41,541 bases of DNA from a virus. Each line of letters opens with the position of its first letter. The first letter of the stretch is position 1. The stretch is taken from positions 1 to 41,541 of the IMG/VR virus record IMGVR_UViG_3300022935_000048; one strand, 5' to 3'. The notes under the pieces are model-generated. The model did no database searches. It worked only from the letters and a program-made list of their open reading frames with translations, and had not been told where the DNA came from. Both the position numbers and the translations under genes were made by a program. Shown here piece after piece: positions 12,320 to 38,703 of the stretch.

Positions 12320-15300
12320 TTATTGCACTGACTCATCTGGACCTTTCATTAATTGTTGCATCAAGTAAATTGTTCCTTGAACTGCAACTGGTTTAGTTGT
12401 TTCAATACCAAATTCGTCTTCCTCAGTATAAGTTCCAAAAATGTCTACATCAACTGGAAAATTAATATACCCATCTGATGCACTATCAATAATATTATCA
12501 ATAGTACCAATTTTAACCTGTCCTGCCTGGACTGCGTTTGTTTCAAGGTTTTCACCACCAACACTTAATCTATCTGCAAGGAATGATGCAATAGCTCGTT
12601 GTGTTGGCACAACGTTATTTGAATCTTCAGCAAATGTTGGATCTGTTGAAAATTCTCTAATTACTGTTCCTGAACCGCCTAATCGAACTCCACCTAGTGC
12701 TAGTTCGCTCAAACCGTCTAAGTCAAAGTAATCAGCACTAATAGTAACAATACCTGTTGCCTGTTGTACTGAAAACAGTTCACCAGTTCTAAAGTTACCA
12801 TCTTGGTCTGTACTTACATAAAATACTCGTCCGCCGTCTTGTTCTAGCACTTCGTTCTCAGGTGCTGCTACAAAATAGTTACCCCCTGCATAAATGTCAG
12901 GATAGTTTGTTGATTCAAAGTTTCCTGTACCAACGTCTAGGAAGTCATGTCCCGAAATACGACATTGACTGTAACGACTTCTTAGTGTTACTGCGGTTCC
13001 GTGTTCTAAGTTATATTCATTTCGTAGTCTAGGTGAAACTCTAAACTGTACAAGTCTTGTACCATTTCCAGTGCCATCATCTCCTAAATCTTCAATTTCA
13101 ATACCTGCAAAAAGTTTTAAATCGTCTGGATCTGCTGTTTCTTCGTCTAGTACAGTATCAATCCTAATTTGAACACCTGGTCCAGGAATTGTTGTTACCC
13201 CTGCTAGTGTTAGATATCCTTCTTCAGGAATAATATCTGCATATCCGTCACCACTAATTGTAACTGTTGTACTTGTTACACGATAGCCGCCGCCTCTATT
13301 TACAAAGTCTGGCTGTGCTATTACTCCGTTGCCAATTCTGTTATCAGTTTCAACTTCTGAAACAAATTGGTTATCTGTTACTGTTAATACCATAGGATTG
13401 TCAACTTCGTCATAACCACTACCTGGATCCCATATTAACATATTTGTAAACGCACCTTGACCAATTTGCGCTCTTAATTTTGCTTGACAACCTGTTTTAA
13501 CATGCTGTAATCCGCCAGTTGCATTTTGTGCTAATACTACAAACAACGATTCGTTATTAATACGTGCTTGAGCAATAGCTTGCCATTTATACGATAAATT
13601 AAGAGTTCTTGTTGTCCAATTAATTCCATCTTCAGAAGTAACACATTCGTCGTGTCCTTCAAGAACAATACCTCCTGCAACTACTTGAGAAGCCCAACCA
13701 ATACTAAAGAATACACCTTGTGCATAAATTCCGTTTTTAACATTAAACGCTCCGCTATCACTAGCACTACCGCCAGCTGTCCAGGTTACACCTTTGTCTA
13801 ACGAATATGCTGTAGTTCCGTCTTCTGCAATAGCAACAAATCTATTTTTACCATAAAGCAATCTTATCCATGCTGTATTTGCTGCTGGAAGAACAGCGTT
13901 TTGCAATGTCCAAGTAATACCATCGTCTGATGTTGCAACATCTTGTGTTGCACCACTTGTTACAGCAACAAATGTTCCTTGACCGTAAGCAACAACTGCC
14001 CAATCATCTGATTGCGGCATTGCAGTTTGTGTAAATGAAAGGCCGCCGTCTGTACTATAAAGTGCTTCGGCTGAGTTAGTTCCTACTAATACAAATGTAT
14101 TTTTACCATATGCTGCATCTGACCATTCTCTTGTTATAGGTAAACTTCTAGTAGTCCACGTTTCAGCAGTTAATGAATAGCTGTAAGTGTTTAATCCAGA
14201 TGCAAATGCTAAGAACTTGTTATCTTCTGCTAATACCTTAATGTAATTGTCTGCGCCTGCATCAAAACTTAAATTAGCATTTTGCCATACTTCGCCATCT
14301 GCACTGAATGATAACGTAGATTTATTATCAATAGCTACAAAAAGTCCTCCAATTGGTGTACCAGTATATGTAAACGCATCAATACTGTTCGAGCTGTCGT
14401 CTGTTACTGCTGTTACTGTAATTATAATATCATTTGTTCCTGACGCTCCGCCTAAATTAGCACCATCTAGTGTAATACTATCCCCTACTGCATATCCTGC
14501 TCCTGGATTTATAGCAGTTACAGTGTAAGTAGGTCCTTCTCTATTAACACGCCATGTTGAATTAATTGGATCAAGTCCAAATGTTTCGCCTGTACCTGTT
14601 TGTCCAATAAGTCCATTATATAATGCAGAAGTACCACCAAATGCTGCTGATACAAATGTTTTATCTACAATAGTTTTATTTTCACTAGAGTATCCTGGAT
14701 GATTTGCTATAACCCTTGGTTCAAATCTGTAATTTGTAGTTGGATCAAATGTTGCTTCTAAAGGATAGCCTGGAACAATATGATCCCATCCTGGAGTACC
14801 ATCGCTGTCTTTAGCAACAGTTACTACCCTTGACACTGCATTATAGTTTGTAACATAACCGTATTGACCTGCTCCTGTACCTGAAAGAATAATAATTCTC
14901 ATTCCTTGAATTTCTGAAAGGAATTGTGTGTCATCTGATTGTGAAATAATAATACTTGAAGATGCATCTGGAGTATCTTGTGCATAACCCTGTCTTGTTA
15001 GGTAGTTACTACCACCTTCTCTACCTGATCCTGAAGTATTAATTAATCGAGCATTAAACAATGCACCATCTCTAAAGTCTGTAAACTCTGTTTCATCTTG
15101 AGCGCCAGCACCTACTACTGATGCAGTAGCAGTTGTATAGTTTTCACCTGTATTTGAATATTCAAATGCTAAAATTCTGTCGTCGCTTAAACCTGAAAAT
15201 ACTGCTTCAACTTGTGCTTCGTTGTTTCTATTCATTAGTGTACAAGACTGAGGTGTTTCGGTAGGGTCACCGCCTGCTGAAATGCTACCAAATCTACCAT

Positions 15301-33278: not shown

Positions 33279-33374
33279 AATATTCTCCTTTGTTTTTACA
33301 TTTGCCGTTCTAGGGTCTACGCGGTGGATTTCCGCATAAGTCCTCATTTAAGAGGCACCTATAATTGACATATG

Positions 33375-33382
33375 TATTTATC
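33375..33382 (-). promoter_or_regulatory. T4-type late promoter GATAAATA
   Basis: The minus strand reads GATAAATAC directly after the terminator that ends the structured RNA, 97 nt upstream of the 128-aa gene. It restarts transcription for 33278-30906. Confidence 0.75.
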
Positions 33383-33388
33383 AAAAGA

Positions 33389-33422
33389 GAAAAAAGCCCG
33401 ACACAGTTAAGTATCGGGCTTT
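33389..33422 (-). terminator. Intrinsic terminator ending the structured RNA
   Basis: A perfect 9-bp stem, AAAGCCCGA/TCGGGCTTT (33414-33422 with 33393-33401), followed on the minus strand by a T-tract (TTTTTTCTCTTTT). It lies a few nt after the long-range closing helix of the RNA. Confidence 0.88.
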
Positions 33423-33426
33423 GAGA

Positions 33427-33643
33427 ATAAGCAAAATAGGTAGGACTCGGTTACACCTACAAGCCACGGACCAAATACCATTTCATCTCCGCAGCAACCT
33501 GCTTCCGCTCGGTAGAGCGATGTGACACTGCCTGTTTCCAGTACAACGCCTGGGTACCACCCCTAAGCAGTCAAGTTCGACGCTCTGGTAAACGCCTCTT
33601 CCTTGCACTATAAACATTGACTAGCTAAGTCTTTGTTGCTTAT
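33427..33643 (-). ncRNA. Novel structured phage RNA candidate, ~217 nt
   Basis: This segment is visibly richer in G+C than its surroundings and has no gene with a ribosome site. Its ends pair perfectly over 8 bp: ATAAGCAA (33636-33643) with TTGCTTAT (33427-33434). Nested inside are AGAGCG/CGCTCT (33581-33586 with 33514-33519), then ACTGCT/GGCAGT (33566-33571 with 33527-33532), a GTAGG/CCTAC hairpin (33456-33460 with 33440-33444), and a short GCAG/CTGC hairpin at 33491-33502. A sigma70-type promoter predicts a start at about 33643, exactly the first base of the closing helix, and a terminator follows at 33422. It does not match tRNA, tmRNA, RNase P or glutamine-riboswitch signatures that I know. 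A regulatory, 6S-like or other trans-acting RNA is possible; function unknown. Confidence 0.65.
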
Positions 33644-33649
33644 GTTATT

Positions 33650-33677
33650 AATATAACATCTTTTTAGTAAAAGTCAA
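33650..33677 (-). promoter_or_regulatory. Sigma70-type promoter for the structured RNA
   Basis: The minus strand shows TTGACT (-35, 33672-33677), a 16-nt spacer, and an extended -10 TGT-TATATT (hexamer 33650-33655). This is the only strong host-type promoter I see in the window and is unlike the late promoters, so the RNA could be made early or throughout infection by unmodified host polymerase. Confidence 0.65.
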
Positions 33678-33691
33678 TAACTTTTTTGTCC

Positions 33692-33720
33692 AAAATATAA
33701 AAAACCCGCCGAAGCGGGTT
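33692..33720 (-). terminator. Intrinsic terminator after pqqA
   Basis: A 7-bp stem, AACCCGC/GCGGGTT, is capped by a UUCG tetraloop (33703-33709 with 33714-33720). It is followed on the minus strand by TTTTTTATATTTT. It is a very stable, strong terminator that ends the pqqA transcript. Confidence 0.9.
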
Positions 33721-37977: not shown

Positions 37978-38703
37978 CTACCTTAAATTGAAGATTTCTT
38001 TGAAATCTGCAACTAAGATATTGTTTAAGTTGTCTAATTTATTTAGTTCTGGAGGCAAATAATTATCTGGCTGTATTACTCTTACAAACTCAATGTGTGG
38101 ATTTTCTTTAATTACTGAAACAGTTTGCCTAAGCCAATTACCAAAAAAAGTAGCACTATCAGACTCTTTTTTGTAATTCATAGTGTTTGCATATATGTTG
38201 TTTAAGGTTTTACCTTCGTTTAACCCCTTATAATCAAATCCTAATATGTATATCCGTTGATATCCGTGTTGTGCTGCAAGCCATAGTGCAGTAGGACCAC
38301 TACTCCATCCTTTTCCAGGATTAAAAAAATTTAAGTTTCTAATACCATCAAAAGATCTATTAGGATTAGTCCAAACTGTATTCTTATGTTGATATCCAGA
38401 TCTATTAATTTCTAAAATCATTTTTACATCAACTGCTACTAGATAATCAGGAGTAAATGTTCTATATACAGCATTACATGCATATATTTTGCCGCACATT
38501 GATAATTGAGGTAAGTCAATAGACTGTCTACTTGTGCCATTACCTAACACAAAGCCTACTTTTCCTTTATTTGATCTTTTTAATAGTTCGTTTAAGGATA
38601 CAGTATGTTCTTCAATAAGACGTTCACGCTTAGTTTTACGTCTAGCGTCTCTTACTTTTTTCCATTGTTCTTTGGTGTATCCGGACTTCTCTAATTTTGG
38701 CAC
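37978..38703 (-). CDS. DUF115/GT-like Rossmann-fold protein, 241 aa
   Basis: A 241-residue soluble protein. A basic helical N-terminus (about 1-45, RDARRKTKRERL) is followed by a nucleotide-binding-like GKVGFVLGNGTSRQSIDL (48-64), IYACNAVYRTFTPDYLVAVD (73-92) and SSGPTALWLAAQHGYQRIYILGFDY (134-158). The pattern G-N-G-x-S-R...D-L, then P-D-x-x-x-x-x-D, resembles DUF115/MptE-like and sialyltransferase-like Rossmann proteins. This suggests sugar or nucleotide-sugar chemistry, perhaps capsid modification, but the active-site residues cannot be proven. It starts with GTG (38701-38703), overlapping the upstream TAG by one base. It stands between the portal and core genes, where T4 has none of this type. 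A basic tail may bind DNA or another protein. Confidence 0.6.
   Translation of the reverse strand: MPKLEKSGYTKEQWKKVRDARRKTKRERLIEEHTVSLNELLKRSNKGKVGFVLGNGTSRQSIDLPQLSMCGKIYACNAVYRTFTPDYLVAVDVKMILEINRSGYQHKNTVWTNPNRSFDGIRNLNFFNPGKGWSSGPTALWLAAQHGYQRIYILGFDYKGLNEGKTLNNIYANTMNYKKESDSATFFGNWLRQTVSVIKENPHIEFVRVIQPDNYLPPELNKLDNLNNILVADFKEIFNLR

Follow-up and report, generated by a model that had tools for sequence, protein, structure and literature searches.

The analysed stretch, here called the window, comprises the 41,541 nt of IMG/VR record IMGVR_UViG_3300022935_000048. The record is that of a T4-like phage of aquatic bacteria, with gp20-, gp21- and gp23-like genes (portal, prohead protease and major capsid protein) that match PHROGs. 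All structural genes of the window lie on the minus strand, and the RNA block at 33427-33643 is therefore to be read on that strand. An earlier note had described this block as a candidate new structured RNA with its own promoter and terminator; all of the elements it listed are present, though on the minus strand (Table 1). Between the prohead genes and the portal gene lies a sialyltransferase-like (CST-I) or glycosyltransferase-like gene (37978-38703, minus strand), with a match to phrog_4603 (E 1.7e-6) and a Pfam match below cut-off.

Table 1. Features around the RNA block, in the direction of transcription.
Feature	Position	Strand	Remarks
gp23 gene, 3' end	33974	-	Upstream of the RNA block
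Terminator after gp23	33952-33929	-	
PqqA-like 23-aa ORF	33831-33760	-	Between gp23 and the RNA
Terminator after the pqqA-like ORF	33703-33720	-	Upstream of the RNA's promoter
Sigma70-type promoter	33650-33677	-	-35 TTGACT 33677-33672, 16-nt spacer, -10 TATATT 33655-33650
RNA body, assigned to the manA family	33427-33643	-	Predicted start 33643; RF01745, R1 (see text), covariation
P0 terminal helix, 5' strand	33636-33643	-	ATAAGCAA; first base is the predicted transcription start
P0 terminal helix, 3' strand	33427-33434	-	TTGCTTAT
Intrinsic terminator of the RNA	33393-33422	-	12-bp stem, 6-nt loop, T-run
T4-late-type promoter element	33374-33382	-	GATAAATAC; belongs to the next transcription unit
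freshwater-2 RNA (RF02980)	33283-33356	-	Predicted 5' leader of the next gene; element separate from manA
Next gene, 127 aa	32892-33275	-	MGRPLNKRYFG..., start 33275

The PqqA peptide upstream of the RNA (Pfam PF08042, 46 bits, cut-off 21.1) is followed by a terminator that is predicted to insulate the RNA from upstream transcription. About 20 of the fetched loci encode related peptides. In some close relatives (L006, L016, L017 and L019), this segment has the opposite orientation to that in the window. Phage PqqA has been described for methylotroph viruses of Lake Baikal (PMC7678222), and its presence hints at a PQQ-using, perhaps methylotrophic, host. On the other side, the late-type promoter element, which also precedes freshwater-2 in relatives, is followed by freshwater-2 itself (43.9 bits, E 1.6e-5, under the RF02980 gathering score of 49.9). 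The freshwater-2 segment folds better than its shuffles (z -2.6) and is kept before the same MGRPL gene in most of 62 relatives; it is predicted to be the leader of a late-type transcript carrying this gene. The 127-aa MGRPL protein has no match in PHROGs or Pfam and is a probable virion protein of unknown family. Given the signals on either side (terminators at 33720-33703 and 33422-33393, late-type promoter at 33382-33374), the RNA appears to be fenced off from both neighbours.

The block itself is GC-rich, with a GC content of 0.51 over 33400-33599 against about 0.31-0.39 on the flanks, and apparently non-coding, as had been claimed for it. A small protein was rejected as the product: the minus strand has a single small ORF, of 44 aa, which is interrupted by a stop codon in 32 of 42 relatives and whose length is not a multiple of three in 29 of the 42. 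An RNA on the plus strand was rejected too, with a worse fold (-52.7 vs -68.4 kcal/mol on the minus strand) and no suitable promoter. No tRNA or tmRNA was found within the window. The promoter matches the consensus at 10 of 12 positions and has a TG before the -10 (extended -10). The -10 stops 6 nt short of 33643, which places the predicted start on the first base of a perfect helix (33643-33636 with 33434-33427, 8/8 paired) closing a block of roughly 217 nt. The promoter, the predicted start and the terminal pairing are present as described, together with the strong terminator behind the block. Both promoter and terminator calls are consensus matches: promoter-like sites in the stretch are not above chance (3 found, 4.1 expected), and terminators number 5 against 1.0 expected. 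What makes them convincing is that the same signals reappear at a constant position in RNAs that have diverged. The minimum free energy structure of the transcript keeps the RNA fold and the terminator side by side.

At gathering scores, no Rfam family reaches its cut-off anywhere in the window. At a relaxed threshold, the RNA matches the whole manA model (RF01745, model positions 1-192) at 33430-33630 with 49.9 bits and E 6.5e-12, which is below the gathering cut-off of 55.2. The helices follow the RF01745 order: a 5' hairpin, a closing helix, a stem with a hairpin, a three-hairpin arm and two 3' hairpins. A covariance model built from window-like RNAs only (R1), whose seed contains the window sequence, scores 195 bits on the window at 33431-33637. 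In the reverse search, R1 matches the tested classical cyanophage manA loci at the same places (E 2e-14 to 2e-7), and two classical loci that it matched score 181-182 bits with RF01745. Intermediates lie above the cut-off, namely L066 with 79.3 bits (L053/L066, a relative at the same genomic place as the window's RNA) and Pelagibacter phage Mosig with 64 bits. Among 50 window-like records, 37 match RF01745 at E <= 0.01 and only 6 reach the cut-off. The reverse search and the intermediates indicate that the sub-threshold score reflects a limit of the seed alignment, not of the relationship; since R1 recognises the classical loci and RF01745 recognises the window, membership holds in both directions despite that score. 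The window's RNA is thus, as judged from these models, almost certainly a divergent member of the manA family. The earlier note had proposed the RNA as new and had named an Rfam match as evidence to the contrary; the Rfam scan returned manA, below cut-off, and a new family is ruled out by this match, the intermediates, the 37 records and the reverse search. The 5'-UTR, cis-regulatory location given for RF01745 is an annotation of the family, outside its sequence definition; it does not describe the window, where a terminator and a separate late-type promoter come before the next gene. The bridging RNA of L066 found no match by blast in the phage collection. Bacterial genome contigs were scanned for manA as well, and the matches checked were due to chance, except for a manA-like RNA (L359, 3924-4157, minus strand, 71 bits with R1) on a contig of a Marinifilum metagenome-assembled genome (Marinifilum sp., Bacteroidota). 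This contig is perhaps of phage origin.

Taken alone, the block has an unremarkable folding energy against shuffles (z -1.1), which was dropped as evidence of structure. Because stability proves nothing here, the case for a structure rests on covariation and on the promoter that recurs in relatives. In a set of 43 distinct window-like RNAs (A2), the manA fold pairs 85.7% of cells compared with 67.9% in shuffles, changes on both sides are seen in 35 of 49 pairs, and pairing collapses once the partners are slid by one column. Although the A2 structure was derived from a subset of the same rows and the shuffles ignore relatedness, the nearly threefold excess of double-change cells (392 vs 141 in shuffles) and the slide control are well beyond what these biases would give. 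The structured RNA proposed earlier is supported by this covariation. P0, which lies outside the RF01745 model, covaries within the window's subtype (37 distinct ends): its own pairs outscore every one of 300 permutations, and the exchanges seen include ATAAGC/GCTTAT, TATGC/GCATA, AATGC/GCATT and AATAG/CTATT. No such signal was detected for P0 in the CGACGG subtype (38 RNAs). The consensus fold is a multi-branched junction with helices P0 to P5, and the conserved residues (UAGUGCAAGGAA, AACUUG, GGU and AGUCC) sit in junctions and short helices.

Relatives were collected from viral contigs with two DNA patterns, which favour RNAs carrying the chosen motif, and from loci fetched via the neighbouring gene; among the matches listed, this gave at least 144 distinct manA RNAs, 89 window-like and 55 classical. 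A sigma70-type promoter like that of the window, with at least 10 of 12 matches and within 105 nt upstream of the core motif, is present in 128 of these 144 listed RNAs, compared with 66 of 1440 random windows (4.6%) and 56 of 1440 shuffled upstream sequences. At 11 of 12 or better, the counts are 89 of 144 (matches listed), 27 of 1440 and 3 of 1440, respectively. Among the matches listed, the spacer is 16 or 17 nt in 131 of 132 promoters and a TG precedes the -10 in 105 of 132; the -35 is mostly TTGACA or TTGACT. The predicted start coincides with the 5' end of the manA RNA.

By script, a canonical intrinsic terminator was scored no more than 90 nt after the RNA in 50 of 83 listed window-like RNAs (about 60%; one of the 50, in L083, falsely counts part of a tRNA) and in 8 of 54 listed classical RNAs, against 17 of 685 shuffles overall, 8 of 415 for the window-like set (about 2%) and 45 of 720 random windows (6%). 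The terminators of window-like RNAs differ in sequence from one another. Many of the terminator-less window-like RNAs belong to the pelagiphage kind, in which TATAAATA comes right after the RNA and is closely followed by a gene that is often gp32-like. Just 3' of the RNA, 13 of 54 cyanophage-type loci among the matches listed carry a conserved, imperfectly paired hairpin, AGACCUAAGAUGCAACU..AGU.GGGCAGAUGGUCU, with a run of U's behind it; it falls outside the terminator rule and was left uncounted (L207, L209, L216, L225, L247, L258, L259, L267, L272, L274, L293 and L301 are among them). In L207 and L267, this hairpin has no Rfam match at E 0.05. Apparently non-coding blocks also recur right behind the RNA, TAGTGTTTTG..CACACCAGAGTAGATGCACC in L085 and L173 and ACTATATGGGAACAACCTG in L150 and L188. 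No Rfam match was obtained at E 0.05 for those in L085, L173 and L150, and the blocks are possibly further structured RNAs of the same transcript. The L085 phage contig also contains a tmRNA of the permuted, alphaproteobacterial type (12888-13275, plus strand; RF04321 118 bits, RF01849 98 bits), and SsrA is annotated in phage Mosig too.

The first proteins downstream fall into about 47 similarity clusters among the matches listed and by eye include the MGRPL virion protein and gp32-like, transaldolase-like and Hsp20-like proteins. An element linked to tRNAs was rejected, as tRNA adjacency is rare (4/87 and 5/54, among the matches listed). R1 finds the RNA in 16 of 64 sources, made up of the window, Mosig and 62 loci that were retrieved via the downstream gene. 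Freshwater-2 is present in most of them. At this site, the manA RNA behaves as an accessory cassette that the MGRPL gene can do without.

The sequence itself shows the membership of the manA family, the structure, the promoter, the terminator and the insulation from the neighbours, and a discrete stand-alone transcript in the window is very likely. It would run on the minus strand from about 33643 to 33387, roughly 255 nt including the terminator, and host RNA polymerase carrying the housekeeping sigma factor would make it from a strong promoter. By analogy with those early genes of T4-like phages that host promoters drive, expression would probably come early in infection. The predicted fold is closed and multi-branched, with helices P0 to P5. 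We consider it probable that this structured RNA is itself the product, rather than a control over the next gene. Its most likely mode of action is in trans, where the fold would engage a protein or an RNA-protein complex of the host or the phage. Action in trans, taken by itself, is a fair but less secure inference, drawn from the conserved residues lying in junctions and short helices rather than in a single long open region, the pattern of antisense RNAs. The promoters, the terminators, the roughly 47 downstream groups and the late-type promoter that the next gene has of its own argue for an independently transcribed RNA rather than a cis-regulatory leader.

Such a leader or riboswitch candidate, sensing something and governing read-through of the terminator into the freshwater-2 and virion gene, is nevertheless the type under which Rfam files RF01745 (Cis-reg), and manA RNAs are frequent in potential 5' UTRs (Weinberg et al., 2010; PMC2864571). 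In almost all loci the RNA is promoter-proximal, and pelagiphage-type and many cyanophage-type loci lack a terminator. In the window, however, a terminator lies between RNA and gene, followed by a late-type promoter separate from that of the RNA, and the minimum free energy structure holds RNA fold and terminator together. Downstream genes are unrelated between phages, and in most relatives the gene found in the window follows freshwater-2 without a manA RNA at that site. Over 50 loci, terminator arms paired no better with their own RNA than with others (mean -7.75 vs -7.85 kcal/mol), so that no antiterminator is visible; an attenuator was rejected on this test, which likewise gave no sign of an expression platform excluding the aptamer fold. 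A platform of another kind is possible. For the window, the leader is thus unlikely. Against the stand-alone RNA, about 40% of window-like and most cyanophage-type RNAs among the matches listed have no canonical terminator nearby. At these loci, a longer early transcript would begin with the RNA, for instance one that continues into gp32-like or transaldolase-like genes; there the cis-regulatory reading survives, and mixed use of one RNA domain, in cis and as a stand-alone RNA, is possible.

Less likely again is that the RNA serves to stabilise or process the 5' end, as a folded cap guarding early transcripts (gp32, transaldolase, tRNAs), and that its terminated copies are by-products. Its position at the extreme 5' end of the predicted transcript and the varied downstream genes, some tRNAs among them, would suit this role. 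However, the RNA is too elaborate and its junctions too strongly conserved for a generic cap, terminated copies protect nothing, and tRNAs are seldom adjacent. A 6S-like inhibitor of host RNA polymerase, the example given in the earlier note, is suggested by size and an own promoter only and is highly improbable, as 6S families have no match in the stretch up to E 10 and the consensus is a multi-branched junction, not a single or long bulged hairpin.

The manA RNA has been an unexplained riboswitch candidate since 2010. While the family itself is known, what looks new is its context: here it resembles a separate RNA gene that brings its own promoter and terminator. In the relatives, manA usually stands first in the transcript predicted from a near-consensus host promoter, in many cases with a terminator of its own, and the genes behind it are unrelated. 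The RF01745 cut-off misses a large clade of the family. The stand-alone reading shifts the search from a ligand to a stable small RNA and its binding partner. More tentatively, and short of an even chance, the whole family may consist of widespread, early-expressed, trans-acting RNAs of T4-like aquatic phages that target a host machine and have been misfiled as cis-regulatory.

Compared with manA as described (RF01745; Weinberg et al., 2010), the window's RNA shares the full-length model match, the helix order and the occurrence in T4-like phages and aquatic metagenomes, and differs in its score under the gathering cut-off, its own promoter and terminator and a subtype-specific P0 outside the Rfam model. 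The downstream genes of manA were found to be similarly varied in that study, and regulation of host metabolism was suggested (PMC2864571). The nearest RNA in the phage collection is an intergenic one of Pelagibacter phage Mosig EXVC030M (77% identity over 211 nt; unannotated in MT647606), which also has a sigma70-type promoter and P0 but lies before a rubrerythrin-like gene and has no terminator. With 6S RNA, only a similar length is shared; the architecture is another, and no covariance model matches. Stand-alone small RNAs of phages, such as the cyanophage-encoded CfrI (reviewed in PMC12197685), are likewise short transcripts outside protein genes. However, CfrI is antisense to psbA, whereas the window's RNA is intergenic and relies on a conserved fold.
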